Shown here piece by piece: positions 1-46,991 of a stretch of 47,703 nucleotides of DNA (within the stretch, counting starts at the first letter, position 1; every line of letters begins with the position of its first letter). The notes under the pieces are model-generated. The model saw nothing but the letters and a program-made list of their open reading frames with translations. It was not told the DNA's origin and ran no database searches. The translations under genes and the position numbers were made by a program. Source of the stretch: Clostridia bacterium (GTDB taxonomy: Bacteria > Bacillota > Peptococcia > DRI-13 > UBA5745); the NCBI GenBank assembly GCA_018434325.1, contig JAHDPO010000030.1, positions 1 to 47,703 on the forward strand. The letters run 5' to 3'.

Positions 1-3
1 CAG

Positions 4-32
4 TTGATATACATTCCCGGTTATTGTATAAT
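4..32 (+). promoter_or_regulatory. possible rightward promoter at the window edge
   Basis: TTGATA (4-9) and TATAAT (27-32) are 17 bases apart, a good sigma-A spacing. No gene follows in this direction; transcription would meet the hairpin at 74-111 within about 70 bases. It may belong to a gene cut by the window edge, be a short antisense or small RNA promoter, or be chance in AT-rich DNA. Confidence 0.3.
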
Positions 33-59
33 CTGGCTGTAAGATTATTGGTTTCACAA

Positions 60-326
60 CTATATTTTACAACAAAAAACGGCTTCTGGCTTACGCCAGT
101 TGCCGTTTTTTGTTCCTTTTTTAGGTGCTGTTACTGCGACACGCCCTTGCTTTGCCACCGCTTCAGTCAGCGGCTCAAAGGCGATGATTTCGCCGCTCAT
201 ACCGATAGCGGATGCGCCGCTTTCCGCAAAAGCGGTCATCGGCAAAATGCTCAGCAGCATGGCAAAGGATAACGCCATTGCCAAAAGCCGCTTGAGCGGT
301 TTGTGCGTATTTGTGTTCATGATCAT
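60..326 (-). CDS. truncated secreted surface-protein fragment (88 aa)
   Basis: An N-terminal Sec signal peptide is clear: a basic start, a hydrophobic core around residues 13-27 and an AFA cleavage site near residue 33. The next 30 residues, with the EIIAFEPLTEAVA stretch, resemble the beginning of large clostridial surface proteins. The frame then runs into a transcription terminator (74-111) and stops, so the last 20 or so residues are encoded by terminator DNA. The ATG at 326 was chosen because AGGAGG lies just upstream; a longer frame opening at 473 has no such site. I infer the remnant of a larger surface protein whose body was deleted, perhaps a relative of the giant protein further right. 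A genuine short exported peptide cannot be excluded. Confidence 0.6.
   Translation of the reverse strand: MIMNTNTHKPLKRLLAMALSFAMLLSILPMTAFAESGASAIGMSGEIIAFEPLTEAVAKQGRVAVTAPKKGTKNGNWRKPEAVFCCKI
74..111. terminator. bidirectional rho-independent terminator
   Basis: The hairpin CGGC-tt-CTGGC/GCCAG-tt-GCCG is flanked by A6 on the left and T6 on the right, so it could end transcripts from either side. It overlaps the 3' end of the truncated secreted-protein frame. Confidence 0.75.
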
Positions 327-473
327 ATAATCGTCCTCCTCAGTTCGTCCCGTTTGGGATGGCTGTACTATGTAAATGAGCCTATAAATCTGCTGATACA
401 ATTTTACTGTTTTTGAGGAGAATGGGTTAGGGCGTTCATGATCGTATCTACTGACTTTTTTGCTATCCTGCAA

Positions 474-515
474 ACAAAAAAATCCCTCCGAAGCACTTTG
501 CTCGAAGGGATTTTC
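474..515 (-). terminator. terminator after the HTH-PAS-AraC gene
   Basis: An imperfect hairpin (AATCCCTcCGA / TCGAAGGGATT) is followed on the minus strand by a run of seven or more T. It lies 14 bases past the stop codon of the 529-1458 gene. Confidence 0.75.
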
Positions 516-528
516 CTTGTATTTACCA

Positions 529-1458
529 TTACGGTGTCATTGCCGCCCGATAATCGGAAGGAGTCATTCCCAACTCCTTTTTGAGCTTTTTCGCCAGCTT
601 ACCATTGTAATCCACGCCGCATTCATCAAAAACTTGAAGGATGGATAGATTGCTGTCAGACAATAGTTCCTTGAGTTTTTGGAGCTTAACAGTCTGATAA
701 TACTGATGGGGGGTCATGCCGATGTGCTGTTTGAACAGACGGGTATAATGCGGCTTGCTCATATAGACAATGCTTGAAAGCGCATCCGCGTCAAACTCAT
801 CCTTCCAATGGTCATCTAAATATTCCTTGCCTTTTATCACTTCTTCTCTGCCCTGATAGTATCGGGAGGGGATGAAAATGCCCACGACATAGGCGATTTG
901 ATGATTTTCATCATAGATGGGAAAGGAGGCCATATCAACAAATAAGCTCTCTGGAGGGAATTCTGTATTGCCGCCATACTTTGAGACGGCCTCTCGAATC
1001 GGCATCTTGACATCGTAGATATAAGCGACCTCTCCCTGATAAGCCCGTTCGACAAAATCCTTGATACCCCATTTTTCGAGATTTGGCTCGTAGCGCGTAT
1101 TAAATATTCTCAAATCTTCCGGCGGATTAGATAATTTTATATGACTAAAAAAAGCGTCGTTCGCAAATAACATCGCGCCCTCCGGGTCGCATATCTGCAC
1201 TGGGTAAGGAAAATGCTTGAACATCTCCACAAACAGATCTTTGTTTTCAGTCAGCAGCTGAAAGGGCGCTTCTTTTTCCTTTGGTATGGAAGATTTTTTT
1301 CTTCTTTTATCCTCGGGCTTGGCGGTATCTTTAGGGATGAGCCAAGTGTTTCCCTTTTTCACCGCTCCGGAGATACGCCCGTCCATCAAATGAAAGGTAA
1401 TGGCCCTCCGGGAAACACCCCATTTCTCTACAGCTTCACTGACCGTCATATATTCCAT
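529..1458 (-). CDS. fused HTH-PAS-AraC transcription regulator
   Basis: This 309-residue regulator has three visible parts. Residues 1-50 form an excisionase/MerR-like winged HTH (VSEAVEKWGVSRRAITFHL, then GNTWLIPKDTAKP). Residues about 70-200 form a PAS-like sensor (HFPYPVQICDPEGAMLFAN ... FPIYDENHQIAYVVGIF). Residues about 208-306 form a two-HTH AraC domain (MSKPHYTRLFKQHIGMTPH ... ELGMTPSDYR). PAS domains usually bind a small ligand or cofactor; none can be named here. The same architecture occurs at 8461-9439, but there it is split into two genes. The gene sits downstream of the giant surface protein and may control it (inference). Its own promoter is at 1498-1526. The start is set by the conserved N-terminal HTH; the Shine-Dalgarno sequence is weak. 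Confidence 0.85.
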   Translation of the reverse strand: MEYMTVSEAVEKWGVSRRAITFHLMDGRISGAVKKGNTWLIPKDTAKPEDKRRKKSSIPKEKEAPFQLLTENKDLFVEMFKHFPYPVQICDPEGAMLFANDAFFSHIKLSNPPEDLRIFNTRYEPNLEKWGIKDFVERAYQGEVAYIYDVKMPIREAVSKYGGNTEFPPESLFVDMASFPIYDENHQIAYVVGIFIPSRYYQGREEVIKGKEYLDDHWKDEFDADALSSIVYMSKPHYTRLFKQHIGMTPHQYYQTVKLQKLKELLSDSNLSILQVFDECGVDYNGKLAKKLKKELGMTPSDYRAAMTP

Positions 1459-1497
1459 AACACCAAACCACTCGCCTCGACATGAATTTCTACATTT

Positions 1498-1526
1498 ATT
1501 ATATTACCGATAGTGGAAGAATACAA
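1498..1526 (-). promoter_or_regulatory. promoter of the HTH-PAS-AraC gene
   Basis: On the minus strand TTGTAT (1521-1526) and TATAAT (1498-1503) are 17 bases apart and about 40 bases before the start codon. The gene-free stretch 1459-1866 otherwise holds the terminator of the giant gene and no recognised signal. Confidence 0.6.
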
Positions 1527-1805
1527 GAACTTGTGCAAATGAATACAATGTAAAAACCCCAAAATAAAAATGAAGCGACCACTTAAGTGTGCAGAGGTGA
1601 ACATGCATAATGGACTCATGTAGCGTTGTAAGGGATGAAAAGGTAACTTCGTAACCAAAGAATGAGATGAAACAGATGAAGCATAGATTCGGGAATAAGC
1701 GATTGGAATGGTCGGTATAGCAACAATTTTTTGCTGGCATGTGCCATTTCGTAACACTGGTTAGCAGCGGTGTATGTTGCGCCCTTCCTAAATTTTTACG
1801 GACAG

Positions 1806-1853
1806 AAAAAGCAAGAGTAGAAGCCGACCAACGTCGGCCTCCACCCTTGCTTT
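1806..1853 (-). terminator. terminator of the giant surface-protein gene
   Basis: Two 21-base arms (1808-1828 and 1833-1853) pair with only G-T wobbles around a short loop and are followed on the minus strand by T5. The stop codon lies at 1867. Confidence 0.8.
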
Positions 1854-1866
1854 GTATATGTGTGCG

Positions 1867-4800
1867 TTATTTACTTTTTCTCACGCCGTTTTCATTTACC
1901 TCATAGCCGTCAATTTTGGTGTTGACTGCAAGAGAACCGTCGGCCTGAAAATAATACCACTTGCCCTCAATCTGGAGCCACTTGGCGGATATCATCACGC
2001 CATCGGTGGTGAAGTAATACTTGGCGCTTTCGACAGTGAGCCAGCCTGTAGCAGCTTTGCCGTCTACGCTTATATACTGCCATTGGCCGCCGTCGTTCTG
2101 GTTCCAGCCGCGTGCCGTACCCTCGTCGATGACAAGCTCCACGAACCGACGTAGGATGGTTGATGCCTCGGCGCGGGTAGCGTTGCCCTGCGGATCAAAG
2201 GTGTTGCTGCCCTTGCCCTGCATGATGCCAGCCTGCTGGATCGCTTTCACAGCATCCTTGGCGTAAGCGGAGATCTTCGCACCATCGGAGAAGGTGACCG
2301 CTGCTATAGCTGTCGGCAGCTTGTAGCCGGTGGCCTTGGCGTAGTTCTGCATCATCACCGCCATCTGCTCGCGTGTAATCAGATCGCTCGGCCTGAATTT
2401 ACCGTTGCCGTAGCCGGATACAATCTTGTTTTTAACCGTCCACTCAATATAAGGCATGGTGGAGTCACTGCTTCTGACATCAGTGAAGCCACTGGTCTTA
2501 TAGATACTCACATCTGCACCGGAGAGCCTGCCCAATGCCGTGAGGAAATCGGCGCGGGTGATGGAGGTGTTGGGTGCAAAGGTGGTTGCGGTCGTGCCGC
2601 TGATCAGGTCACGGCTGACAACAAAATCAATGTTGTCCTTTGCCCAATGCTTCGCCGTGTCGGTAAAGGCCGGGGCAGAAGCTTTGTAACCTACGCCGTA
2701 GGTGGACAGGCTGTTCCTGCTGAAAATCAGTCTGCCGTTGTCGTAGCTGGAATTTGTAAGTAACTGCGGCTTTCCGCTCTTATCGACATACACACCAAAC
2801 AGGCTACCGGTTCTTTCCTTGTCGGTGCCTTTGTAGGCAAGGCCCAGCGTGACCGCACCCTTTCCAAAATTGCTGATCGTCTCGGTCTTGCCGTTCTTCT
2901 GATAGCTCACGGTAATGTCGAACACCGGGCGGTTGCCGATGAGCCTCTTTGCCGCAGCAGACAGCTTCGTCAGCTTCTTGGCAGAAACAGTGACTGTGCC
3001 GCTGGATTGCCCGTCAATCTCAGCAATTGCTCCTGCATCGATTGTGATGTCCAGCACCGCCGAGCCGATCTTAACAAACTTTATGCCCGCTTCTTTCAAA
3101 CATGCAATCGCTCCTGCGTCGATGGTAGCGCTCAGGCCGGTGTAGCTGCCACTGCCTGTGATGTTGAAGTCCAAAGCGATACCGTCAACCTCTTTGCCAG
3201 ATTTCTTTGCTGCATCCTGTGCTGCCTTGATGGCGTCCTTTACCATCTGCTCGGTGATCGTTGCAGAGAGAACGCCGTCCTTCACTGTGCCGGCAGCACT
3301 CATTTTCGCCGTGGTCGGCATGCCGGGCTGCTTATCGGTGACAACAGTGGATGTTGGAGGTGTAGACGTATTGCCGCCGCCATCGCCACCGCCGCTGCTA
3401 CCGCTTCCGTTGTCGGTCCAGTTGGCGGTCACAGTGACAGCCTTGCCAGGCATAGTAAAGCTGGCATTTTTGCTTCCGGCATTGGTGATTGCCACATCGG
3501 AGGAAGTCCAGCCTGCAAAGCTGTAATTGCTTCGGCTGCCCGCCTGTATGGTGACAACCTTATTTGCAGGATAGCTGCCTGCACCGGTAGGTGAAGCGTA
3601 GCTGCCGTTAACGGTTACAAGGTAGGTTGCAGCAACTGGTTCAAATATCGCCTTAACGGTGACATTTCCGGAGGGCATGGTAAACTTGTTGGCCGTGATG
3701 GTCACACCGCCGCTGACAACCTGCCATTCCTTGAAGCGGTAGTTACTGTTCGGCGTAGCAGTCAGGGTGATTTCCGTATTCTGTGCCGCAGAATTTATAT
3801 TGGCAGAAGCCGCTCCGTTGCCATCGCTTTGGACGGTGATGGCATAGTGAAAGGCTGGCAGAGCTTCATAGGTTGCTGTCGCCGTCACTGCCTGTGCGGG
3901 CATGCTGATCGATGCTGTGGCATCAGTTTTCTTTGTGTCACCTTCGAAGGATACAGCAGGGGAAACCACCCACTCCTTAAAACGCTGTCCGCCAGGTGCG
4001 GCGTTGGCGATAATGGTAACTATCGAACCCTCTGTATAGCTGCCACCGCCTGTGCCGCCTTGCACGGTCAGGGGATAGGTGGCCTGCGGAGCTTTTTGCG
4101 GAGAGAATCTAAACCTATAATTATCCCAGGTGATGTTCTTGCCTGTGACAGCACTCTCATTCACCATATAGTTGTTTCTGGCATCAATATGAGAATAATC
4201 CGCACTGCCATTCAGCACAAGCCCGGTGAGCAGGTTATCGGAGCAGTATAACTCATCCAGTTTCGGCAGGCGGCTCACATCCAGCGCCGTTAGCCGATTC
4301 TCGGAGCAGATCAATTCAGTCAGTTTCGTCGAACCGCTCACATCCAGCGCTGTGATCTGGTTAGCACGGCAGTACAACTTAGTCAGATTTGTCAAGCCGC
4401 TCACATTCAGTGCCGTTAGCTTATTCTCATAGCAGCTCAGGACAACCATCTCCGTCGAACTGCTTACATCTAACACCGTGAGATAATTCTCATTGCAGGA
4501 TAACTCAGTCAGTTTGGTCAGGCCGCTCACATTCAGTGTGGTGAGCTTATTCTTGGAACATTTTACAACGTCCAACTCCGTCAAACCGCTTACATCCAGT
4601 GCAGTAAGCTGGTTATTGGAGCAGTCCAAAGTAATCAGCGCGGTAAAATGTTCGATACCCGCAAGGCTGGTAATGCCTTTACCTACTATCCCTAAATCTG
4701 TAATTCCGGCTACATCGGCAGTATAAATGGGGTCACTGCTGTATTTGCCCAGCTTTGATCGCACCGCAGCGAGAAACTTGGAATCGGTGAAACTGCTGGT

Positions 4801-7470
4801 GATGTCAGCAGATGGAGCAGCCTTAACCCATACCACACGGTCATCGCCATCGGTATACTTGGTGTATCCGGGCTTGCTGGAATCCGCCGCACCATCGCTT
4901 TTGAGCTTTATCGTACCACTGAGGTTGATATAATTCGCTGCCGTTATAGCGCCGTCAATCGTCATGCGCCCGCCACCGCTTCCGCCACCGGTCAGCCATG
5001 CGCCAACACCATCGGCTCCGGTTGCAGTAATCGTTTTTTGGGCGGTTATGGTGCCGCCGTTTGAAATGCGCGCACCGCATGTTACCGCTTCAATAACGCC
5101 ATGCGCCAAAATGGTTCCGCCCCCTTCGGCAAACACTCCAACGCCTGTAGTCGCCACAGTCTTGCCGCGAATAGTCACTACACTCCCGCTTCCGGAAGCA
5201 TAAGCCCCTCCGGAATTCCCGATGACATCCCCTTTCACAAGAACATTCGCCTTATCCATAATGTATATACCGCTATTTATGCCATTCACATTGCCGTTCA
5301 CAATAACGTCAGTTCCCGTACCGGAGGCATAGATCCCGTTACCTCCAGCTGCTGTTGCCGTGGCATTGGTTACGGTAACTGCACCACCGCTCCACGCTCT
5401 TATGCCATAATCGGTACCGGTGACATTGAGTTCACCTGTGGTAGCAGAGAGACTGACCCTTCCAGCCGTTCCGGATACATCCAGCCCGGAACCGCCAGAG
5501 TCTGTTATATTCAGTTTATATGGTCCCACATCGAATATGATATGCTTTCCCGTGACGGCAATGCCTTTCGGATAATTAATATCTTTAAGCAGTTTGATTC
5601 TATCTCCGGATTGTACCGCGGCAAGTGCCTCATCCAATGTGGCATATTGTGTACCGCTGATTTCGCAGACCTTGTCGGACGGTACGGCCACGCCCTTGAT
5701 CCGGACTACACAGTCGTTACCGTTGGAATATTTGGTAAAGCCGGAAAGGTCGGGATCTGCCACACCATCACCCTTGAGCTTAATCGTACTGCCTAACTTG
5801 ATATAATTTACTGCTGTTATATCGCCATCTATTCTCACAGTTCCGTCATTTGTGATCCATGCGCCAATACTGTCTGCTCCGGTTGTGGTGATGTCTTTTC
5901 CTGCGATAATCCTGCCGGTGCTTACAATTTTCACGCCGCACGATTCAGCTTCAATATCTCCATGCACCGCAATATTTGCATCACTTTCGGCTTCCGCCCC
6001 AACGCCTGCCGCATTAACATTGCCGTGAACCGTAACGGAGCTTCCGCTGCCAAACGCATAAACACCTGTATGTGGTGCGTTTACATTCCCTTGCACAATA
6101 ACGCTCGATGTTTTGGGCTGGACACTGGTGGCATGAATTCCGATGCCATCCGGCCGGGTTGCTGTGGCATTGGTCACGGTGGCAGAAGCAGTTTCGCCAT
6201 TCCTCACCATCACTCCAATACGACTACCGGTGATATTAAGCTCACCCGTGGTAGAAATTAAACTGACGCTTCCGGTTACTTCAAGCCCGGTCAGATAGTC
6301 ATATTCTGTTGCTGTTATGTTCAGTATATATTGCCCCACATCAAAGATGACTGCTTTGGAAATGGTAATACTGTCGCTATAGTTGATATTTGCCGTCAGC
6401 TTGATGGTGTCACCGTCTGATAAGGCATCCAACGCATCCTTTAGCTCCTCAGGCGTACCGACCGCAATGACGGTAGCCGGTGTGTCTGTACCCTTTACCC
6501 AAACAACGCTGTCTTCGGGGCCGGTGTGAGACGGGTGCATGTATGTGCGATAACCCGCTTTCGTGGTAGATAGCATTTTGGCATCAATGGTAAAATTAGC
6601 ACCATTCACCCTGACGTAGTTTTCCGCTTTTTTTACATTGATTACACCATCGACGGTAATTTTGCCATTGCCGCTCGAAAAGACGCCGACGTCACCGATT
6701 TCGGTGCCGGTTGCAGTGGCATCCCCCTCAATATGAATGGTACTGTAAGACTCGGTTTTAGCCGCAAGCGAGCTGCCTGTGACATTTCCTATTACCGTTA
6801 TATTGCTGCTCTGCCATGCCACAACGCCATCGCTGCCATTTTCAGCAGCCTCGGCATCACCTAAAACAGTGATCTCAGAGCTGTCTACAGCAAATGCACC
6901 GTATCCGTTTGCCCCGGTGGCGGTTGCATTGGTAAGCGTAGCTGTAGACGAGCCGTTTGCTTTCACCCCATAATAATGCCCGGAGGCATTGAGTTCACCC
7001 GTGGTGAAAGCCAGCGTAACCGTACCGCCGTTTTTCACCTCAAGTCCACATCCAGTACCCGAAGAGTCTGGGTTTGTTATATTCAATTTGTATTGCCCAA
7101 CATCGAAGGCCATGGTGATACCATCAATGACAATCCCCTTATTATAATTGATATCTGCCGCCAGCTTGATGGTATTGCCGTCTGCCAGGTTATTTAACGC
7201 ATCCTCCAACTCTGCCACTGTCCCGACTTCGATTTCTGCAGGCAAGCCATATGGCACACCTCTGCTATGGATCTCATTTGCGTCGGGCGAGGGAGCAGGA
7301 CTTCGCTCCAGCCCGGTTTCCTCTGCATCTGAGGGTGTAGCTTCCGGCGCACCGCTGTCCAACACCTCCGCATAAGCCTGCGTAGTACCTATTGGCACCG
7401 TCATAAGCATGACTACTGCCAATAGCATGGAAAGAGCTTTGCAAAGCCCTTTTTTCTGATATTTCAGCAT
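1867..7470 (-). CDS. giant mosaic SLH-anchored surface protein (1867 aa)
   Basis: This is an exported cell-surface protein. In order: a signal peptide (residues 1-34, ending AYA); three homologous right-handed beta-helix modules (about 75-890), each opening with ELEDAL..L.DG..IKL..DINY and rich in short V.GNV-type turns; leucine-rich repeats of the LTALDVSGLT type (about 910-1093); three InlB-type B repeats (about 1120-1357); a GGGDGGG/STPP linker; a poorly recognised domain (about 1375-1590); three SLH domains (about 1595-1780); and aromatic cell-wall-binding repeats (GWLTVESAKYYFTTDG, WYYFQADGSL) to the end. SLH domains normally bind pyruvylated secondary wall polymers; the terminal repeats resemble choline-binding-type modules. 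ATG at 7470 is preceded by GGGAGG. An adhesin or glycan-binding role is likely but unproven. Neighbouring PAS-AraC genes may control it. Confidence 0.9.
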   Translation of the reverse strand: MLKYQKKGLCKALSMLLAVVMLMTVPIGTTQAYAEVLDSGAPEATPSDAEETGLERSPAPSPDANEIHSRGVPYGLPAEIEVGTVAELEDALNNLADGNTIKLAADINYNKGIVIDGITMAFDVGQYKLNITNPDSSGTGCGLEVKNGGTVTLAFTTGELNASGHYYGVKANGSSTATLTNATATGANGYGAFAVDSSEITVLGDAEAAENGSDGVVAWQSSNITVIGNVTGSSLAAKTESYSTIHIEGDATATGTEIGDVGVFSSGNGKITVDGVINVKKAENYVRVNGANFTIDAKMLSTTKAGYRTYMHPSHTGPEDSVVWVKGTDTPATVIAVGTPEELKDALDALSDGDTIKLTANINYSDSITISKAVIFDVGQYILNITATEYDYLTGLEVTGSVSLISTTGELNITGSRIGVMVRNGETASATVTNATATRPDGIGIHATSVQPKTSSVIVQGNVNAPHTGVYAFGSGSSVTVHGNVNAAGVGAEAESDANIAVHGDIEAESCGVKIVSTGRIIAGKDITTTGADSIGAWITNDGTVRIDGDITAVNYIKLGSTIKLKGDGVADPDLSGFTKYSNGNDCVVRIKGVAVPSDKVCEISGTQYATLDEALAAVQSGDRIKLLKDINYPKGIAVTGKHIIFDVGPYKLNITDSGGSGLDVSGTAGRVSLSATTGELNVTGTDYGIRAWSGGAVTVTNATATAAGGNGIYASGTGTDVIVNGNVNGINSGIYIMDKANVLVKGDVIGNSGGAYASGSGSVVTIRGKTVATTGVGVFAEGGGTILAHGVIEAVTCGARISNGGTITAQKTITATGADGVGAWLTGGGSGGGRMTIDGAITAANYINLSGTIKLKSDGAADSSKPGYTKYTDGDDRVVWVKAAPSADITSSFTDSKFLAAVRSKLGKYSSDPIYTADVAGITDLGIVGKGITSLAGIEHFTALITLDCSNNQLTALDVSGLTELDVVKCSKNKLTTLNVSGLTKLTELSCNENYLTVLDVSSSTEMVVLSCYENKLTALNVSGLTNLTKLYCRANQITALDVSGSTKLTELICSENRLTALDVSRLPKLDELYCSDNLLTGLVLNGSADYSHIDARNNYMVNESAVTGKNITWDNYRFRFSPQKAPQATYPLTVQGGTGGGSYTEGSIVTIIANAAPGGQRFKEWVVSPAVSFEGDTKKTDATASISMPAQAVTATATYEALPAFHYAITVQSDGNGAASANINSAAQNTEITLTATPNSNYRFKEWQVVSGGVTITANKFTMPSGNVTVKAIFEPVAATYLVTVNGSYASPTGAGSYPANKVVTIQAGSRSNYSFAGWTSSDVAITNAGSKNASFTMPGKAVTVTANWTDNGSGSSGGGDGGGNTSTPPTSTVVTDKQPGMPTTAKMSAAGTVKDGVLSATITEQMVKDAIKAAQDAAKKSGKEVDGIALDFNITGSGSYTGLSATIDAGAIACLKEAGIKFVKIGSAVLDITIDAGAIAEIDGQSSGTVTVSAKKLTKLSAAAKRLIGNRPVFDITVSYQKNGKTETISNFGKGAVTLGLAYKGTDKERTGSLFGVYVDKSGKPQLLTNSSYDNGRLIFSRNSLSTYGVGYKASAPAFTDTAKHWAKDNIDFVVSRDLISGTTATTFAPNTSITRADFLTALGRLSGADVSIYKTSGFTDVRSSDSTMPYIEWTVKNKIVSGYGNGKFRPSDLITREQMAVMMQNYAKATGYKLPTAIAAVTFSDGAKISAYAKDAVKAIQQAGIMQGKGSNTFDPQGNATRAEASTILRRFVELVIDEGTARGWNQNDGGQWQYISVDGKAATGWLTVESAKYYFTTDGVMISAKWLQIEGKWYYFQADGSLAVNTKIDGYEVNENGVRKSK

Positions 7471-7493
7471 GATAATCCCTCCCATATTTGATT

Positions 7494-7682
7494 TTAATCT
7501 TCTTCCGGCTCTGCCTGTGCGACTGCGATGCTGAACCCTGCGTCTTTCTCGATGTCTGCCTCCACTCCGGCATCCTTAAGAATTTTTTCAGCAGTCTTTT
7601 TCGCCGCCTTTTCCTTTGCGCCGCAGCCGGCAATCGAAAGAGCCATTAAAAGAATCAACAGCCCGATTAAAAATTTCTTCAT
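7494..7682 (-). CDS. small lipoprotein (62 aa)
   Basis: The N-terminus MKKFLIGLLILLMALSIAGC carries a lipobox (SIAGC, lipidated Cys at residue 20). The mature part is only about 43 residues, begins with Lys/Ala-rich helix and ends acidic. It lies 23 bases before the giant surface-protein gene, on the same strand, so co-transcription is likely. A GAGAGGAAG ribosome site precedes the ATG. It could be a small membrane-anchored partner of the surface protein; no known family was recognised. Confidence 0.75.
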   Translation of the reverse strand: MKKFLIGLLILLMALSIAGCGAKEKAAKKTAEKILKDAGVEADIEKDAGFSIAVAQAEPEED

Positions 7683-7694
7683 CTTCCTCTCTTT

Positions 7695-7793
7695 TCAATG
7701 TCTTGTGGCATAATAGCTATTGTTCTTTTCTTGAGGAGTTTCCTTGGCTGCCTCCTTATTTTCATGTTCTAATTTGTTGCTTTGCTCTGTCAT
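7695..7793 (-). CDS. possible 32-residue small protein
   Basis: This short frame starts MTEQSNKLEHENKEAAKE and ends YYATRH. A GAGGGAATTAAG ribosome site stands before the ATG, and its stop codon lies 12 bases before the lipoprotein start. It is highly charged, with no signal peptide or membrane segment. Position, spacing and ribosome site support translation; there is no family evidence. It may simply be a leader ORF for the lipoprotein/surface-protein operon. Confidence 0.45.
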   Translation of the reverse strand: MTEQSNKLEHENKEAAKETPQEKNNSYYATRH

Positions 7794-7810
7794 CTTAATT
7801 CCCTCTCTAT

Positions 7811-8296
7811 TCAAATTGTAAAAACCGCGACGCTGTGCATCACCAAGCCGTCCTCGGCTGAAATCGGAAATACAATTGCTTTACGATAGTTTTTTGGTTT
7901 TGAATCATTTTTTCTTTTTTCTGGAAATCTGAAAAGCGGATACTTCAGATCATCCAGAAAACAGGTTTCCCCGGCGAAGGCTTGCCGGACGGCACTCGCC
8001 AGCGCAATATTATCGAAGATGCAGTGATAAATGTTGAGCCTGCCAGCCCCAAGGTCTTCCGGGGTTGCCCCGGTTTCTGCGGCAAAGGCATTGTTGACCG
8101 TTTCCAGAATCCCCTGCAGCGTAAATACTGCTATGGGGTACGGACAGAAATCAATGATTTGTGAAAACAGACCTTCGTTTGCAGTAAGCATCTGGAACCG
8201 CCGGATCATCTGATCGTGATACTGTACTTTTTCCTCCAGCTCCTTTTGCAGCTCTAGCAGTTCCAACAACAGTTGTTCTTTCGTCTTCTCACCCAT
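7811..8296 (-). CDS. stand-alone PAS-domain protein without DNA-binding domain
   Basis: This 161-residue protein has an N-terminal coiled coil (residues about 1-35, LLLELLELQKELEEKVQ) and a PAS-like domain (about 40-155: FCPYPIAVFTLQGILETVN, then AFAGETCFLDDLKYPL). The domain is related to the sensor part of the two PAS-AraC regulators nearby: same PYPI/V motif, same F-GET(C/I) strand. No HTH or output domain is present. ATG at 8296 follows GGGAGG at a 9-base spacing; an upstream in-frame GTG is less likely because it overlaps that site. I infer it modulates the AraC-type paralogues by sharing a ligand or forming mixed dimers; this is unproven. Confidence 0.7.
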   Translation of the reverse strand: MGEKTKEQLLLELLELQKELEEKVQYHDQMIRRFQMLTANEGLFSQIIDFCPYPIAVFTLQGILETVNNAFAAETGATPEDLGAGRLNIYHCIFDNIALASAVRQAFAGETCFLDDLKYPLFRFPEKRKNDSKPKNYRKAIVFPISAEDGLVMHSVAVFTI

Positions 8297-8406
8297 GGAG
8301 CATATCCTCCCTTCCACCTATTTGCCTTTACTTTAATGAAAAACACCTCAATAAGATAGGCGCCACCCGACCCAATTTAGTAAGAAAAAGACCATTCGGC
8401 GCAAAT

Positions 8407-8443
8407 GAAAACAGGTCTTCGGAAAATCCGAAGACCTGTTTTC
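8407..8443. terminator. perfect 17-base hairpin terminator
   Basis: GAAAACAGGTCTTCGGA (8407-8423) is exactly complementary to TCCGAAGACCTGTTTTC (8427-8443) around AAA. T runs at both outer ends allow use on either strand. It follows the stop codon of the PAS-AraC gene at 8461 on the minus strand. Confidence 0.75.
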
Positions 8444-8460
8444 TATCACTGCCATAACAT

Positions 8461-9255
8461 TTAGCCCTGTTGTGTGTTTTTTCGATATTGGGACGGGGAA
8501 AGTCCCGTTTTTTCCTTGAAAACTTTTGCGAAATAGCCGTTGTAGTCCAAGCCGCAAGCAGTGAATACCTGAGAGATGGACAAGTTTGAATCCGATAGTT
8601 TCTCTTTGATCCGGCTGACCTTAAAATTGACGTAGTAATCGTGGGGCGTCATCCCTGTATGCTTCTTAAATAGCCTTGAAAAATGGGTCCGGCTCAGACA
8701 GGCCGCTTTCGCCATTTCGTTTATATCGAAGACTTCCAGCCAGTGGGTTTCTATGTACTCCTTCGCTCTCTCGATTTCCTCCTTACCGCGGTAGACCCTT
8801 CTGACGGTCTGGATGCCAACAACATAGGCGACCTGTCCCGCATCATCAAAGATTGGGAAGTTGGTGATGTCCTGATACATGGCCTCCATATCGTAGTCCT
8901 GCACACCAAAACGCTCCGACAGAACACTCAGAGGAATCTTAATGTCCGGGCAATAAATGGTCTCCCCCCGAAATGCCCGCTGCAACACACTGAGCGGAAT
9001 ATTGGAGGTAACGGCAGGATCTTTTAAGACATTATATTTTCCAATGACGGTTTCCTCAAGCAGTTCCCGCGTGATTCCGTATTGCTTGCGCACGGCCTCA
9101 TTGACAAACACCGTGGTTCCGTCAGGGGCAAAAACGTGAATCATATAGGGAAACAACTCAATTGCCTTTGCAAGTAGGGCTTCCTTATCAGAATTAAAAA
9201 AGGATTGGAAGGAGTCCGCCAAGCTGTTTTGATTTTCTTTATGGTTCGTTATCAT
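8461..9255 (-). CDS. PAS-AraC regulator (second paralogue, HTH split off)
   Basis: This 264-residue protein has an N-terminal PAS-like domain (about 30-160: LFPYMIHVFAPDGTTVFVN ... NFPIFDDAGQVAYVVGI) and a C-terminal AraC HTH pair (about 165-260: LSRTHFSRLFKKHTGMTPH ... KTGLSPSQYR). It matches the 529-1458 protein along its length except for the N-terminal winged HTH, which is here encoded by a separate upstream frame (9239-9439). The ATG at 9255 overlaps the end of that frame by 17 bases in another frame, so translation may be coupled. The split could be natural or a frameshift of a fused ancestor. Confidence 0.8.
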   Translation of the reverse strand: MITNHKENQNSLADSFQSFFNSDKEALLAKAIELFPYMIHVFAPDGTTVFVNEAVRKQYGITRELLEETVIGKYNVLKDPAVTSNIPLSVLQRAFRGETIYCPDIKIPLSVLSERFGVQDYDMEAMYQDITNFPIFDDAGQVAYVVGIQTVRRVYRGKEEIERAKEYIETHWLEVFDINEMAKAACLSRTHFSRLFKKHTGMTPHDYYVNFKVSRIKEKLSDSNLSISQVFTACGLDYNGYFAKVFKEKTGLSPSQYRKNTQQG

Positions 9256-9439
9256 ATGCTTCGGACTCCTTTTTTCGAATTTTCCTCGGGTCGGCGGGCT
9301 TTTTTGCATCGCTTGGAATCATCCATGACTTTCCGAAACGATGCACGCCTTGGATGCGGCCCTCCTCACAGAGCTTTTGCACTCGCCTTTGAGAGATATC
9401 CCACTTAACCGCCGTTTCTTGCACGGTGATAAAATCCAT
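9239..9439 (-). CDS. small HTH DNA-binding protein, N-terminal half of a split regulator
   Basis: The 66 residues MDFITVQETAVKWDISQRRV...GRIQGVHRFGKSWMIPSDAKKP correspond to the first domain of the fused regulator at 529-1458: excisionase/MerR-like winged HTH with the same closing WMIP/WLIP motif. GAGGAG stands 6 bases before the ATG. The frame ends inside the start of the PAS-AraC gene. It probably acts with that partner, or the pair is one gene broken by a frameshift. A promoter lies at 9471-9499. Confidence 0.7.
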   Translation of the reverse strand: MDFITVQETAVKWDISQRRVQKLCEEGRIQGVHRFGKSWMIPSDAKKPADPRKIRKKESEAYDNEP

Positions 9440-9470
9440 TGAAACGCTCCTCGTGACAAAATATATTTTA

Positions 9471-9499
9471 ATTATATACGCTATCACGAATAGATTCAA
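9471..9499 (-). promoter_or_regulatory. promoter of the split HTH/PAS-AraC genes
   Basis: On the minus strand TTGAAT (9494-9499) and TATAAT (9471-9476) are 17 bases apart. The -35 box falls at the first bases of the recombinase remnant, so the junction between the two units may have created or kept this promoter. Confidence 0.55.
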
Positions 9500-10257
9500 G
9501 AGAAATATAAATATGAAATATGGGACATTGAGCAGAATATTTTTTCCGGACTGCTTTACTGCAAGGATTGCGGAAAGACGATGGTGCTCAGCCGGGCGCA
9601 CACCATGGAAGCGGTTAAAAACAACTTCCAATGCGCTACTTGCAGAAAACGGGTCAAGGAAATCTGTTCCGGACACTACATCAGAGAGGCACAGCTGGCC
9701 GCCATCCTTTTGGACGACCTGCGCAGGTGACGCATTTCGCAAGGCAGAACGAGCTGCTTTTCGCCAAGCATATCACGCAAAAGAACGGCGCTGAGATCCG
9801 CAGCGAGATTGCTCGGACTGAGCGGGAGTTGGAAGCTCTCAAGCGCAGAGATACCGAATTGACCGCTCTTTTCAAACGGCTCTATGAGGACAACGTGCTG
9901 GGCAAAATCCCGAATGAGGTCTTCCGAAAGCTCAGTGATGACTGCCTCACCGAGCAAAAAGAAATCCAGTCCGCCATCCCCAAGAGGGAAAGTGAGCTGG
10001 AAAAGCTAAAGGGTTCGGTGGCTAACGTCAGTGCCTTCATCGAAAAGGCAAAGCAGTATACCCAGATCAATGAGCTCACCGCTGAAATCCTGAACCTCTT
10101 CATTGAGCAGGTGGAGGTCGGGGAGCGTGACGAGAAATGGTCTCACACCGCCCCGCAGGAAATCAGCATTTACTATCGGGATATCGGTTTGATGGACAAT
10201 GTAGCCGAACAGCAAGGAGAACAGGAAACATCGAGCGACCCGTCAGAGGTCGCATAA
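9494..10257 (+). pseudogene. C-terminal remnant of a large serine recombinase, frameshifted
   Basis: The first frame (9494-9730) reads EQNIFSGLLYCKDCGKTMVL ... CATCRKRVKEIC ... LAAILLDDLRR and then stops. This is the zinc-ribbon part of a large serine recombinase (Tn4451/TnpX-type). The protein continues one frame over from about 9727 with VTHFARQNELLFAKHIT, a long coiled coil (residues with RTERELEALKRRDTEL) and the terminal IYYRDIGLMD motif, to the stop at 10257. One missing G in the AGGTGA stretch explains the frameshift. The catalytic N-terminal domain is absent, and a stop lies at 9491-9493. It cannot be active. It marks an old mobile element at the border of the accessory region. Confidence 0.85.
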
Positions 10258-10491
10258 AACGGCAACGGCAGACAGCGAAACCTCACTGCCTGCCGGTACA
10301 TACCGCCCCACTTCACCACGGTTTAGAAAATGTCCCTATGATACCGTGGGGAAGGAGATGGTATGTCTTTTTTCATGCTGGAAAATACGGTATAATATAC
10401 TAGATCCTACAAATAAACAGGGGTTTGATGATTTATATTTGCAGTGTCTTTGGTGCAAAAAGAGCAAAATCATTAAAAAGGAATACATAAC

Positions 10492-11670
10492 ATGGGCGAA
10501 ATAAATATTGAACAAATCAGAAGTTTTAGGTTGCACGCTCATCATTTAGATAAAAAATATCAAAGGACGGATATAGTGGAGCTTGTCGGCGCATGTGGTA
10601 TGCAAAATACACCACCCGGCGCATGGGAAACTGCTCTCTATAATCGTGTTCCCGATTGTAGCATGTCGGAAATGGAGCATTTACTATATGAAGAAAAAGC
10701 GCTTTTACAGGCCTGGAGCTTGCGGGGAGCGCCTGTTTTATTTCCTGTTTGGGAAAGTGATGTTTTTCTATCCGCACTTATTTCAGAAGAAGGCGAACCC
10801 TGGATATATACCCCGGGGATTTTACTGGCTCTTGACTTTTTACAGATGACCTTTGATGAATTACTCGATATATTAAAACAGGTTATGCCGCAACTGGACG
10901 GTAAAGTTATCATCAGCAAAAGCACTTTAAACCAAGCGTTAGCTGAATGGATGTTGCCATTACTCCCTGTCGAAAAACGGGAATTGTGGAACAAACCTTC
11001 AATGTACGGAAGACCGGACAAGCAAACTATCGGTGGCGCGGTTGTGTCCTTTATGCTTCGGCCATGTTCCTTTAACGGCTTAGTTGTATTTGGGGAACGG
11101 AATGGCATCTACCCTACTTTTACATCTTATAAAAGCTGGACAGGTCATTCTTTAAAAGTTAGTGAGGACGCATCTAAAAAATTGGTGCGAAAATTTTTGC
11201 ATTGTTATGGACCGACAACAGTTGATATGTTTGTAAGTTGGTTAGGATGTTCCCCAAAACAGGGAAAGCGCATATGGGAAGCTGTTTCAGAAGAAATGGA
11301 GCCAGTTATGGCATTTGGGAAAAAGACCTTTATCCTATCTGTCGACAAAGAACGGCTTTTTTCTCCGGTTTCCTTTCAAAGGGAGCTTCTTCTTCTCGGA
11401 GGCCATGACCCATTTCTCGACCAACGTGACCGAGCTGTTTTGCAGTCGGATAAATCCCTGCAAAAACAGATTTGGACATTGGTAACTAATCCAGGCGTTG
11501 TTTTGTATTATGGAGAAATTATCGGTATTTGGACAAGTAAGAAAAAAGGTAAGGGAATGGAAATCAAGATGACTTTGTGGGGTAAGCCCCATAAAAAACA
11601 AAAGCTCCATAGTCTTGCCGAAGAATATGCTGCCTTTCGTCAACAGAAGTTGGTAAGCATTGAGATATAA
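10492..11670 (+). CDS. AlkZ-like winged-helix protein (HTH_42 family)
   Basis: The 392-residue protein begins EINIEQIRSFRLHAHHLDKK and continues with repeated winged-helix modules, the layout of the AlkZ/AlkX DNA-glycosylase-like family (PF06224). Diagnostic stretches include a GAPVLFPVWE segment, the LRPCSFNGLVVFGERNG segment and a C-terminal TLWGKPHKKQKLHSLAEE. AlkZ enzymes excise bulky or crosslinked bases; the catalytic QXQ-type motif of AlkZ itself was not clearly seen, so activity is not assured. It stands alone, right of the recombinase remnant. A TATAAT box lies at 10391-10396, about 95 bases upstream, with only a poor -35. Confidence 0.75.
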   Translation: MGEINIEQIRSFRLHAHHLDKKYQRTDIVELVGACGMQNTPPGAWETALYNRVPDCSMSEMEHLLYEEKALLQAWSLRGAPVLFPVWESDVFLSALISEEGEPWIYTPGILLALDFLQMTFDELLDILKQVMPQLDGKVIISKSTLNQALAEWMLPLLPVEKRELWNKPSMYGRPDKQTIGGAVVSFMLRPCSFNGLVVFGERNGIYPTFTSYKSWTGHSLKVSEDASKKLVRKFLHCYGPTTVDMFVSWLGCSPKQGKRIWEAVSEEMEPVMAFGKKTFILSVDKERLFSPVSFQRELLLLGGHDPFLDQRDRAVLQSDKSLQKQIWTLVTNPGVVLYYGEIIGIWTSKKKGKGMEIKMTLWGKPHKKQKLHSLAEEYAAFRQQKLVSIEI

Positions 11671-11773
11671 AATTTATCTACCGCATATTAGCCAATGCTC
11701 CAGAAATCGGACGCGAAGCTGATAAATTCGTGCAGAAGATATAGCAAATATATTTAACAGGAGAAATTTTGGC

Positions 11774-12286
11774 ATGATTATTTTGCAAACACCACGTTTG
11801 TTCCTGCGAAAAATACAAACAGATGATTATAGTTCTGTCTGCTCAATTTTGCAGGATATTAATGTCATGTATGCTTGGGAACATGCCTTTTCTGATGAGG
11901 AAGTAGTGCAATGGATTGACGAAAATATTATGAGGTATAATAGAGACGGTTATAGTTACTGGGCAGTGATAGAAAAAGCGTCTGATAAGTTAATTGGAGT
12001 CACCGGGTTAATTTCTGAACAAGCAGATGATGAAAACTATGTCGGAGTTGGCTATATTTATAAAAAATCATATTGGGGAAACGGGTATGCCTTTGAAGTC
12101 GCTTCTGCTTGCGTTGATTATGCTTTTAATATTTTGCATCTAAATGAAATTACGGCACAAATTCGACCGGAGAATATGGCTTCAAGAAAAGTAGCTGAAC
12201 GACTCGGCATGTCTATAAAGAAGCAATTTATTAGACGTTATAAAAACAAAGACATCCCCCATCTTCTTTATAGTCGTACAATATAA
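11774..12286 (+). CDS. GNAT acetyltransferase, RimJ/RimL type
   Basis: The 170 residues follow the RimJ/RimL layout: an opening MIILQTPRLFLRKIQTDDY, a middle strand SYWAVIEKASDKLIGVTGL, the acetyl-CoA loop around GVGYIYKKSYWGNGYAFE (residues about 92-110), and ENMASRKVAERLGM near the end. Such enzymes acetylate N-terminal or small-molecule amines; the substrate here is unknown. GGAG precedes the ATG. A second GNAT gene follows on the same strand, so the two may be co-transcribed. Confidence 0.85.
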   Translation: MIILQTPRLFLRKIQTDDYSSVCSILQDINVMYAWEHAFSDEEVVQWIDENIMRYNRDGYSYWAVIEKASDKLIGVTGLISEQADDENYVGVGYIYKKSYWGNGYAFEVASACVDYAFNILHLNEITAQIRPENMASRKVAERLGMSIKKQFIRRYKNKDIPHLLYSRTI

Positions 12287-22023: not shown

Positions 22024-22893
22024 TTATTCCAGATTTAACCTCTTGGCTAGGATGCGCTCGGTGCCGAAGAAAAGCAAGGCAAACTGAAATAGCCCAACCA
22101 GGAAAGAGCCCAGGAACAAAAGCTGGAGGAATAAATAGCTCCACTCTGTAAAGGGTATGCTGCTCATCCTGTAAAATAGGTTTTGGATTGGGGGGAAATT
22201 GCCCAGAAACACTATACCAAAGCCGAAAACAATGTTTAATATAGTGGAAATGGCTATATAGGCCACGACGGACATCATAATCCGATGCTTGCCGGAGAGA
22301 TGGCCCAAAGCCATAGAGAAATAAATCTGATATAGGCTGGCTAAACCGCCGATGATGGAGATCAAAAGAAATTCGATCAAATAGACCGGCCATAAAGGCA
22401 GCCAGCGGGATAATTCACTCATCAACGCGGTCCAATTGCGGGCAAGTTCGGAAAAAAACGTCATAGGTCCCATCGTACCGCAGACCAGAATCAAAATCGA
22501 CAGCATAGCTACCAGCATGCTGGCAATGGACATGATAAAAGCCACCGTTCCTTTAGCAGCAATCAGCTGCCAGGGCTCTACGGGCAGGGTAAACATCAGA
22601 TAGCCCTCATCAGATAAAAGCCCTTTGTAAAAGCGCTGAATAATGATAATGAGCGTCAGCACTCCCAAGGCTACCATCACGCCAAAGTACACGAACATCG
22701 AAACACCTTGCAGGATACTGATTAAGCTGCTGAAAATGCTATTGCCTGCGAGAGCTCGATTTAAATGCCCATTCGTTATTGAGCCGAGACCAATAAAGGT
22801 GTTGATGATCGTCACTGCGATGACTGCCAAATAAGCGGGTGCAAGGGTGCGCACAAGGGACCTGAATTCATATTTACAAAGCTTACGAAACAT
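22024..22893 (-). CDS. ABC-2-type membrane subunit, copy 1
   Basis: The 289-residue protein has about six membrane helices. It opens MFRKLCKYEFRSLVR and carries LSDEGYLMFTLPV after the second helix, a segment seen in YtrC/YtrD-like bacterial exporter permeases. The ATG at 22893 follows AAGGAGG. It is the third gene of a gntR-ATPase-permease operon. A close paralogue lies at 24598-25458 (same start and same LSDEGYLMFTLPVEPWQLIAAKGT block). The substrate is unknown. Confidence 0.82.
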   Translation of the reverse strand: MFRKLCKYEFRSLVRTLAPAYLAVIAVTIINTFIGLGSITNGHLNRALAGNSIFSSLISILQGVSMFVYFGVMVALGVLTLIIIIQRFYKGLLSDEGYLMFTLPVEPWQLIAAKGTVAFIMSIASMLVAMLSILILVCGTMGPMTFFSELARNWTALMSELSRWLPLWPVYLIEFLLISIIGGLASLYQIYFSMALGHLSGKHRIMMSVVAYIAISTILNIVFGFGIVFLGNFPPIQNLFYRMSSIPFTEWSYLFLQLLFLGSFLVGLFQFALLFFGTERILAKRLNLE

Positions 22894-22910
22894 TATATTT
22901 CCTCCTTCTC

Positions 22911-23618
22911 TCAAACACTGTAGGCAAAGATCTCACGGAAGAGCTGATCCACCGACTTGCCCTCTTCCTCTCGAATACTGTCCACCGTGTCGTGACGCAC
23001 AACCTTGCCATTTTGCAAGAAGATAGCCTCATCAAGAACCCGCTCGATATCGGTGATCAGATGTGTAGATAACAATACAGTGCTGTTTTCACTATAATTA
23101 GTCAGTATGGTGTTGAGAATATAGTCCCGTGCCGCCGGATCAACGCCGCCGATAGGTTCATCCAGCAGGTAAAGCTGTGCCTTGCGACTCATGATCAGGG
23201 CCAATTGGGCCTTTTCCTTAGTGCCCTTGGACATGGTCTTGATGCGATCCTGAGCGCCGATTCCCAATGCGGTAAACATCTCCATAGCCTTCACCCGGTC
23301 AAAGTCCGAATAAAAATCGGCAAAGAAGTCGGCGAGATCGCTGATTTTCATCCAATCGGCAAAATACATTCGATCAGGCAGATAGGAAATCAGTGACTTG
23401 GTATGGATACCGGGAGTGTGGCCATCCACCTCCAAGGAACCGGATGTGGGCTGCACCAGACCGCAAAGTAATTTGATAAAGGTGGTCTTGCCTGAGCCAT
23501 TAGGTCCCAGCAGGCCGACGATACGGCCTTGCCCTACGTTCAAATTAATATGATCCAGAGCCGCCTTTGAACCATAAATCTTAGTTAGGCCCTGACAAGT
23601 GATGAGATTGCTATTCAT
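22911..23618 (-). CDS. ABC exporter ATP-binding subunit, copy 1 (YtrB-like)
   Basis: The 235-residue ATPase has Walker A GPNGSGKTT (38-46), a degenerate signature MSKGTKEKAQ (about 128-137) and Walker B LYLLDEPIGGVDP. The signature with SKG in place of SGG is typical of the YtrB/BcrA-like exporter branch. The ATG overlaps the gntR stop (ATGA). It is nearly identical over long stretches to the 25476-26183 ATPase, showing a recent duplication. Confidence 0.9.
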   Translation of the reverse strand: MNSNLITCQGLTKIYGSKAALDHINLNVGQGRIVGLLGPNGSGKTTFIKLLCGLVQPTSGSLEVDGHTPGIHTKSLISYLPDRMYFADWMKISDLADFFADFYSDFDRVKAMEMFTALGIGAQDRIKTMSKGTKEKAQLALIMSRKAQLYLLDEPIGGVDPAARDYILNTILTNYSENSTVLLSTHLITDIERVLDEAIFLQNGKVVRHDTVDSIREEEGKSVDQLFREIFAYSV

Positions 23619-24597: not shown

Positions 24598-25458
24598 TTA
24601 TTCCAGATTAAGCTTTTTGGATAGAATCCGCTCCGTTCCAAAGAAAAATAGTGCAAGCTTACAAAGCTGACTTACCAGCAACACCAGCATAAAAAGATGC
24701 AAAAGTGAACTGCTCCATTGCTCAATGGGCAAGTCGATTATCATTCTGACAAATTTACGGCTTACAGAAAAATTGGATAGAAATTCCCAGCCAAAGTCCC
24801 ATGACGCCCTTAGTATGGCTGAAGCAGCGATAAAGGCCAGGAGAGATATCATAATCCGGTGCTTGCCGAAGAGATGTCCCAAAGCTATAGCGAAATAAAT
24901 CTGGTATAATACGGCCAGCCCAGCCACAGCCAATATCAAATATATTCCAACGAAATCAATCGGCCGAATTGCCGGATATATCTTGGTTATCTCAGAAAAT
25001 GCGTATGGGAGCGCTGAGAAAAGCTCTATAGGATTTACCGTACCGCTCATCACAAGCAAACCTGACAATATAGCTACCAACAGGCTGGCAAGAATCATGG
25101 CAAAGGCTGCCGTACCTTTAGCCGCAATGAGTTGCCAGGGTTCCACAGGCAAGGTAAACATCAGATACCCCTCATCAGATAAAAGCCCTTTGTAAAACCG
25201 CTGTATGACAAAAATGAGGGTCAACACACCCAGAGCTACCACCACGCCAAAATATAGAAATATAGAAACATTCTGCAAAACGCTGAATAATCCGCCGAAA
25301 ATACCGATGTGATCGATAGCGTAACGCAGGTACTCATCGGATATTGAGTCGTAGCTGATAAACGTATTAACGACCGCTACACCGGCTAAAGCTAAATATA
25401 TGGGTACGAGGGCCCGCGCAAGTAGCCTTAACTCATATTTGCAAAGCTTGCGAAACAT
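24598..25458 (-). CDS. ABC-2-type membrane subunit, copy 2
   Basis: This 286-residue paralogue of the 22024-22893 permease has the same opening (MFRKLCKYELR), the same LSDEGYLMFTLPV block and about six membrane helices. It diverges most in the middle third and the last external loop, so it may handle a different substrate or form a heterodimer with copy 1. The ATG at 25458 follows AAGGAGG. It is co-transcribed with the upstream ATPase. Confidence 0.82.
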   Translation of the reverse strand: MFRKLCKYELRLLARALVPIYLALAGVAVVNTFISYDSISDEYLRYAIDHIGIFGGLFSVLQNVSIFLYFGVVVALGVLTLIFVIQRFYKGLLSDEGYLMFTLPVEPWQLIAAKGTAAFAMILASLLVAILSGLLVMSGTVNPIELFSALPYAFSEITKIYPAIRPIDFVGIYLILAVAGLAVLYQIYFAIALGHLFGKHRIMISLLAFIAASAILRASWDFGWEFLSNFSVSRKFVRMIIDLPIEQWSSSLLHLFMLVLLVSQLCKLALFFFGTERILSKKLNLE

Positions 25459-25475
25459 TCTATTTCCTCCTTCTT

Positions 25476-46921: not shown

Positions 46922-46991
46922 ACTTCTATCTACGCTTTCTGCAGGAGTGGGCGTAGATAACAAGGGTTTGCAATGTGTCAACTGCACTCGT

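Follow-up and report, generated by a model that had tools for sequence, protein, structure and literature searches.

In a Clostridia bacterium, a PAS-AraC regulator and the genes around it probably make up a conserved one-component sensory cassette, by which an adjacent, interchangeable surface-display operon is controlled. The module lies in the window (the whole 47,703-nucleotide stretch of DNA analysed) as listed below. All genes of the preliminary description were present where it had placed them, all on the minus strand.

9239-9439, minus: split HTH, a small excisionase-like HTH_17 protein of 66 aa (Pfam HTH_17, 29.3 bits; cut-off 27)
8461-9255, minus: PAS-AraC regulator P0005/P0011, 264 aa (HTH_18, 2.8e-21; PAS fold by AlphaFold/Foldseek)
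8407-8443, minus: intrinsic-terminator-like hairpin between the PAS-AraC gene and the operon (17-bp stem, -28.5 kcal/mol, z -8.1)
8326-8396, minus: conserved putative operator/promoter element (PWM score and alignments)
7811-8296, minus: PAS-only protein, 161 aa (conserved family with 26 aligned members; structure model)
7695-7793, minus: small ORF, 32 aa, with no assigned family (sequence)
7494-7682, minus: lipoprotein, 62 aa (lipobox AGCG)
1867-7470, minus: SLH giant, 1867 aa (Pfam SLH, 4e-40)
1805-1860, minus: terminator hairpin 3' of the SLH gene (-37 kcal/mol, z -9.3, then a T run)
529-1458, minus: fused HTH-PAS-AraC regulator P0001, 309 aa (HTH_18, 2.1e-17; HTH_17, 2.4e-4)
60-326, minus: truncated ORF with a signal peptide, resembling the beginning of a further SLH giant (MIMNTNTHKPLKRLLAMALSFAMLLSILPMTAFAESGASAIGMSGEIIAFEPL; start motif as in P0010)

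A recurrent module with varied surface cargo

The module is real, and its earlier reading as a compact unit of sensing and surface display is upheld: its gene order recurs, SLH genes are enriched near the regulator and the loci share a cis element. In the same genome, at C64, PAS-AraC (there in tandem), PAS-only, lipoprotein and SLH giant follow one another as in the window, and this order is found again in G004 of the same genus and across the phylum. The regulator was carried by 18 of the 398 genomes drawn from the phylum, and 13 of 25 regulator loci had an SLH gene no further than 10 kb away, compared with 1.7-2.4 expected (P 1e-10 to 1e-8). Downstream proteins were counted at 52 of 76 loci, the other 24, mostly at contig ends, being unjudgeable; many of the loci derive from MAGs. 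The first downstream protein of at least 300 aa more often had a signal peptide, as called by a simple heuristic, than proteins elsewhere in these loci (44/52 versus 101/281), and more often had SLH domains (21/52 versus 19/281; P 4e-9). A check for homologues lacking a surface-protein neighbour thus left the module standing, with the reservation that 8 of the 52 proteins had no signal peptide by the heuristic and that those which had one include some other kinds of membrane protein.

The SLH giant combines three SLH domains (135.8 bits), which together with a hydrophobic N-terminus identify it as an SLH surface protein, with beta-helix, LRR, InlB-B-like and choline-binding repeats (Pfam). Among the SLH giants of this genome, its beta-helix ectodomain is shared only with the protein of the C64 module. 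The 62-aa lipoprotein may be a short form of the module lipoprotein of approximately 167 aa; the profile of the 167-aa family scored 32 bits on it, across residues 1-41 only, mostly signal peptide. The cargo is varied, with 37 full-length clusters among the 52 downstream proteins, and the combination of a constant regulator with varying cargo offers a route to unannotated surface proteins.

A candidate operator ahead of the surface operon

A deeply conserved, unstructured DNA element, newly described here, occupies the gap that separates the PAS-AraC gene from the operon; the terminator lies upstream of the element and a -10 box downstream. In the window, its boxes ACTA (8381-8378) and CCTA (8360-8357) are 21 bp apart and are followed by a -10-like TAAAGT (8335-8330); the distance from the boxes to the -10 is near-fixed across the aligned elements. 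The 21-bp repeat itself is weak: a shift of 21 gave the highest mean column similarity, but permuting the columns showed no significant repeat structure, with the best window at 9 bp. A PWM built without the window sequence scored the window element, among the weakest of all, at 10.9 bits, above the shuffled maximum of 9.3, and matched in about 42 loci, most of them far over that maximum. These matches precede the PAS-only gene or, where it is missing, mostly a surface-type gene. Upstream of PAS-AraC itself, the sole common motif was a -10-like TGTAGTATAATA.

A cis element upstream of SLH-protein genes is already known from Clostridia, Negativicutes and Synergistaceae as the SLH motif RNA, a riboswitch candidate (Stav et al. 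2019, PMC6429828). By that description, the present element is set apart by its position upstream of the -10 and its lack of a consensus RNA fold (0 consensus pairs), and this lack, with no Rfam match, led us to reject an RNA element and speaks against an SLH motif riboswitch candidate.

Under the reading that we favour, PAS-AraC would be a cytosolic regulator, assisted in some lineages by an overlapping or fused HTH helper, and its PAS domain would sense either a small molecule or the redox state, and would probably also dimerise. Upon the signal, we infer, the protein would bind the operator directly ahead of the -10 box, placed as a class II AraC activator would be, switching on the PAS-only protein, the lipoprotein and the large secreted SLH protein. 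The element precedes the PAS-only gene in the window, and control of the SLH gene would need PAS-only, lipoprotein and SLH to be one transcript. The class II comparison is founded on the geometry of the ara system: as in AraC at araI1-araI2, there is an AraC DNA-binding domain (2k9s), and the boxes 21 bp apart abut the inferred -35; in contrast to AraC, the sensor is a PAS rather than a cupin domain, the repeat is degenerate and the binding is predicted.

The PAS-only protein consists of a long N-terminal helix and a PAS domain without an output domain (AlphaFold/Foldseek model, mean pLDDT 77.3, of lower confidence), and in 31 of 72 loci a PAS-only gene follows PAS-AraC at a distance of no more than 700 nt. 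It is probably a feedback partner that would pair with the PAS of the regulator. The sign of control could nevertheless be reversed, with PAS-AraC repressing the surface operon, or both repressing and activating it, and the PAS-only protein acting as a co-repressor or anti-activator in the manner of AraC negative regulators, a known class cited in PMC7098570. A co-encoded protein without an output domain, behind the operator, is what would be expected of a feedback inhibitor. However, the element sits upstream of the -10 and overlaps the would-be -35, the usual position for an activator, and the inferred -35 appears poor, as in activator-dependent promoters; we consider this reversal unlikely.

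Chances are slimmer still that the element serves another regulator or is simply part of promoters in general, PAS-AraC being no more than a stable neighbour that controls distant genes. Binding of PAS-AraC to the element is a prediction, and copies in trans do exist: a genome scan that scored at most 150 candidates per genome placed them ahead of one SLH gene, one AIM24 gene and a lipoprotein-lipoprotein-AIM24 operon. Yet these copies, too, precede SLH, lipoprotein and AIM24 genes, and the strong sites in the same scan, with the same limit of 150 candidates, were at modules. Element and regulator also co-occur: there is about one element per PAS-AraC locus, with two in L152 and L169, each of which has more than one regulator, and 30 genomes without a detected regulator held no convincing element, nothing being better than E 0.005.

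Regulators of mixed ancestry

HTH_18 scored 63.6 and 76 bits in the two regulators (Pfam cut-off 33.6), placing both in the AraC/XylS family. Pfam matches to PAS were weak and under the cut-off (PAS_4/PAS_8); despite these scores, P0011 has a PAS domain by structure match (AlphaFold/Foldseek, mean pLDDT 89.9). The common descent proposed for the three PAS regions was confirmed, P0001 and P0011 sharing 38% and the PAS-only protein matching both at E 2e-8 to 3e-8. The paralogy of the two PAS-AraC proteins is not recent, as they fall in different old clades: P0011, 77% identical to a Sedimentibacter hydroxybenzoicus protein, is sister to Sedimentibacter, and P0001 groups with the HTH-PAS-AraC of Syntrophomonas wolfei with a support of 100. 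The locus is therefore composite. For P0001, no convincing operator emerged when it was aligned with S. wolfei and G381, and the sites of tandem-fused and P0001-type regulators were divergent or not found. The truncated ORF of SLH-giant type (60-326) lies downstream of P0001.

The likeliest PAS-AraC start is the ATG at 9255, with a Shine-Dalgarno AAGGAG and a 17-nt overlap with the HTH ORF, and the split arrangement is thus probably one of two translationally coupled ORFs; the overlap recurs in the same +1 register at other loci. A programmed frameshift was considered and rejected. The window does have a dnaX-like A_AAA_AAG heptamer in phase, yet shifting by -1 runs into a stop, whereas PAS is read in the +1 frame. 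In many relatives, an in-frame stop precedes the start of PAS, and a Shine-Dalgarno and ATG are present as well, which makes coupled initiation the simpler explanation.

The two DNA-binding ends once ascribed to these proteins apply to a minority. Of 90 PAS-AraC genes, 7 have the HTH fused and about 9 have it as an overlapping ORF upstream; in about 5 it has decayed, and in the remainder none was detected. In P0001, HTH_17 was below threshold (21.7 versus 27 bits, Pfam). Judged from these sequences, the HTH is accessory, often split or lost. PAS-AraC pairs were adjacent genes in 12 cases and fused in 8 genes, with at least two origins, which suggests that paired proteins act together.

Looping and mobility

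The preliminary description also led to a version in which the HTH and AraC ends bind two sites, forming a loop between flanking surface genes, and the cassette moves as one unit; the HTH-PAS-AraC fusion conserved elsewhere (S. wolfei, Sporomusa ovata, G221, G381 and G195) and its place between SLH genes in S. wolfei speak for this version, but PAS-AraC is intact while the HTH is absent or decayed in most loci, the window regulators come from different clades, and we judge it very unlikely. Travel as a unit, taken separately, is hinted at by the patchy distribution, by the location in S. wolfei, where the module borders a strain-variable region, and by a truncated DUF4368 recombinase fragment next to the window module (Pfam). 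Against it, no boundaries, terminal repeats or dedicated integrase of a discrete mobile element were found, nor flanking repeats in positions 1-12000 of the window. Plasmid carriage was rejected, since searches gave only generic partial matches, mostly to AraC regulators, with none covering 80% of the protein.

Comparison with known systems and significance

VqmA/EL222-type factors, which were among the best Foldseek matches, likewise join a PAS sensor directly to a DNA-binding domain. Their HTH is of the LuxR type, whereas it is AraC-type here, and no cysteine was conserved in the PAS part across an alignment of 30 sequences, setting these proteins apart from LOV photoreceptors and their photocycle. 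The Streptococcus regulators of TIGR04094 (adjacent_YSIRK)/Spy1337 are AraC-family proteins next to LPXTG surface antigens and are proposed activators (PMC7098570). They resemble the present system in that an AraC-family regulator adjoins a surface-protein gene; however, TIGR04094 scored 26.5-66.8 bits here, in the AraC part only, compared with a cut-off of 200 bits, and the present cassette has a PAS sensor, an additional PAS-only gene, a target that lies downstream and not divergently, and cargo of the SLH type where the streptococcal antigens are LPXTG proteins.

No account of the cassette was found in the open literature. Since many anaerobic Clostridia-type bacteria have it, usually at a surface-protein operon with a shared control site, it looks like a widespread, undescribed switch for cell-surface display in these organisms, and it yields a regulator family, a likely partner protein and a specific candidate DNA site. 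More speculatively, and rather less likely than not, it could be a phylum-wide plug-in switch. Different giant surface proteins would be swapped into a conserved PAS sensor set that keeps one operator and comprises the HTH helper, PAS-AraC (frequently as a pair or a fused dimer) and the PAS-only protein as feedback partner; with it, Clostridia that live syntrophically or otherwise anaerobically would adjust their surface to a metabolic or partner-derived signal. The cassette is present in the culturable Syntrophomonas wolfei subsp. methylbutyratica, Sedimentibacter hydroxybenzoicus and Sporomusa ovata, and the cause of surface change in these anaerobes is therefore directly testable.

Organization and recurrence of the module

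Features at window positions 1-9500, with genes in order of transcription, and the adjoining recombinase remnant
9500-10257, plus strand: large serine recombinase remnant (DUF4368), 5'-truncated and frameshifted, directly upstream of the HTH gene and abutting the module
9439-9239, minus strand: HTH_17 protein, 66 aa
9255-8461, minus strand: PAS-AraC protein (P0011)
8443-8407, minus strand: hairpin terminator 3' of the PAS-AraC gene, z -8.1
8296-7811, minus strand: PAS-only protein
7793-7695, minus strand: small ORF, 32 aa
7682-7494, minus strand: lipoprotein, 62 aa
7470-1867, minus strand: SLH giant, 1867 aa
3' of the SLH gene, minus strand: hairpin terminator, z -9.3
1458-529, minus strand: fused HTH-PAS-AraC protein (P0001)
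3' of P0001: third hairpin, running into T, z -5.2

Because hairpins follow the PAS-AraC, SLH and P0001 genes, each regulator is probably its own transcription unit, with PAS-only, lipoprotein and SLH genes in a separate one. AlphaFold modeled P0011 as a PAS and an AraC fold (pLDDT 89.9) and, at lower confidence, the PAS-only protein as a long N-terminal helix and a PAS domain (pLDDT 77.3); Foldseek matches were the PAS regulators VqmA, EL222 and NifL, and AraC DNA-binding domains.

The same gene order was found on contig C64 of this genome, with a tandem PAS-AraC-PAS-AraC protein (515 aa), PAS-only, lipoprotein and SLH giant (2149 aa); on contig C49, an AraC-half remnant accompanies an SLH giant and an IS200-type transposase. 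Within this genome, the C64 protein is the only other SLH giant with the beta-helix ectodomain of the window protein; similar stretches occur in PAS-AraC neighbors at loci L090, L116, L138, L154, L157, L162, L164, L178 and L180. The regulator was present in 18 of 398 genomes sampled from the phylum, and a named-genome scan yielded 71 loci, including Syntrophomonas wolfei subsp. methylbutyratica, Sedimentibacter hydroxybenzoicus and Sporomusa ovata. Odd taxon labels such as Micrarchaeota and Parabacteroides are probably MAG binning errors.

Association with surface-protein genes

Recurrence beside large SLH/beta-helix proteins was the check set in the preliminary description, and for SLH it was found: 13 of 25 regulator loci had an SLH gene within 10 kb, where the number of SLH genes in the same genomes predicts 1.7-2.4 such loci (P 1e-10 to 1e-8). 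These genomes had been found without reference to SLH. This enrichment is conservative, since contig ends cut loci. The first large downstream protein (same strand, at least 300 aa, after the regulator block) had a signal peptide by a simple heuristic in 44 of 52 cases versus 101 of 281 other large proteins of these loci, and an SLH domain in 21 of 52 versus 19 of 281 (P 4e-9). Of the 72 loci at which the regulator is intact, many of them cut by contig ends, 31 have PAS-only within 700 nt downstream of PAS-AraC. Regulator and PAS-only each form one family, in contrast to the cargo, whose 52 proteins fell into 37 full-length clusters.

A conserved DNA element

K-mer counts in the intergenic region 3' of PAS-AraC gave the first pointer to a motif consisting of AATAACATTTTTCtTACTAATTATAAGCATATTcAACCTATC, about 18 nt and TAATAAAAT, with a core free of indels in 31 non-redundant loci. 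A leave-one-locus-out weight matrix (near relatives kept in), scanned over 1.19 Mb, gave about 42 matches, most at 25-62 bits versus a shuffled-sequence maximum of 9.3. Nearly all lie between PAS-AraC and PAS-only or, at loci lacking PAS-only, between PAS-AraC and whichever gene comes next downstream, often one for a surface protein. Two copies are present at each of two loci that encode more than one regulator. The sites in the window (8396, minus strand; 10.9 bits, matrix built without the window sequence) and in Sedimentibacter, the nearest relative (9.4 bits), are at the expected position. In the window, an ACTA box (8381-8378) is followed 21 bp on by a CCTA box (8360-8357), and G221, a genome with a regulator from the clade of fused HTH-PAS-AraC proteins, shows ACTA-N17-ACTA in the corresponding position. 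The direct-repeat signal is weak: shift 21 tops mean similarity, and a column-permutation test was not significant. No conserved RNA structure was found in the element, nor any match to it in Rfam; a published 'SLH motif' RNA candidate (PMC6429828) was set beside it from its description only.

Across the 18 whole genomes with the regulator, strong sites occurred at modules and at a few other places. Genome G295 has two such trans sites, one before an AIM24 protein and one at a distance of 230 nt upstream of an SLH protein of 771 aa; in G021, a site precedes a lipoprotein-lipoprotein-AIM24 operon, and the second lipoprotein there is a member of the module family. The window's own E-value in the scan of the 18 genomes is inflated, its sequence being part of the model. 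Where no regulator was detected (30 genomes), the best match had an E-value of 0.005; as at most 150 candidates per genome were scored, the absence of sites is not absolute. Proteins of the AIM24 family (PF01987) are repeatedly encoded behind the candidate operator or close to the module (L230:6362-8645, L229:1796-2701, L085, L130). On G295 contig C72 (L128:9629-10261), a stop shortens the regulator ORF; operator-like sites remain elsewhere in that genome.

What the sequences show directly is the anatomy of the module, its recurrence and enrichment beside surface-protein genes, and a cis element that co-occurs with the regulator. As to mechanism, the PAS domain may sense a small molecule, and PAS-AraC would bind the candidate element as an activator, with the surface protein as putative output and PAS-only feeding back, possibly by PAS pairing. 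The nearest documented parallel is Spy1337, an AraC regulator adjoining the R28 surface antigen and its proposed activator (PMC7098570), which works alike but is not of the same family.

Regulator phylogeny and mobility

In a regulator tree built by a quick method, support was 99 for grouping P0011 with Sedimentibacter and 100 for placing P0001 alongside the S. wolfei HTH-PAS-AraC protein. Because the two fall in different clades, the window locus is a composite of two old subfamilies, and the two regulators, called paralogous in the preliminary description, are not recent paralogues. Tandem proteins of C64, G004, G195, G384, G399 and G051 form one clade, in which the N-terminal halves group apart from the C-terminal halves (support 93 and 99); the L166 and L181 proteins seem to have arisen by separate fusions of adjoining PAS-AraC genes. 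Such units occur fused or adjacent (12 adjacent gene pairs), which suggests that two act together. Since 7 genes carry the HTH as a fusion, about 9 have it as a separate ORF that lies upstream and overlaps in the same +1 register, and about 5 keep a decayed remnant, the HTH is an accessory. One PAS protein of this family stands alone, without the AraC part (G000 C22, L027:7812-8342), and adjoins ParA/ParB-like and helicase-like genes.

The module of S. wolfei subsp. methylbutyratica lies, together with unrelated genes, at the edge of a region absent from its sister genome G059, apparently another S. wolfei (97-98% DNA identity). In the window, the recombinase remnant (9500-10257) is the trace of an integrated element. 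Of the earlier proposal that the module may travel as a unit, lateral gain is suggested by this strain-variable region and recombinase fragment; no defined unit emerged.

Other features of the window

Tandem near-duplicate ABC transporter pairs, each an ATPase and a permease, lie at 22024-23618 and 24598-26183. A CRISPR-like array at 46984-47703, with at least 10 copies of a repeat of about 33 nt (TCGATCCACGCTCTCCG...) at 67-71 nt spacing, reaches the window end.
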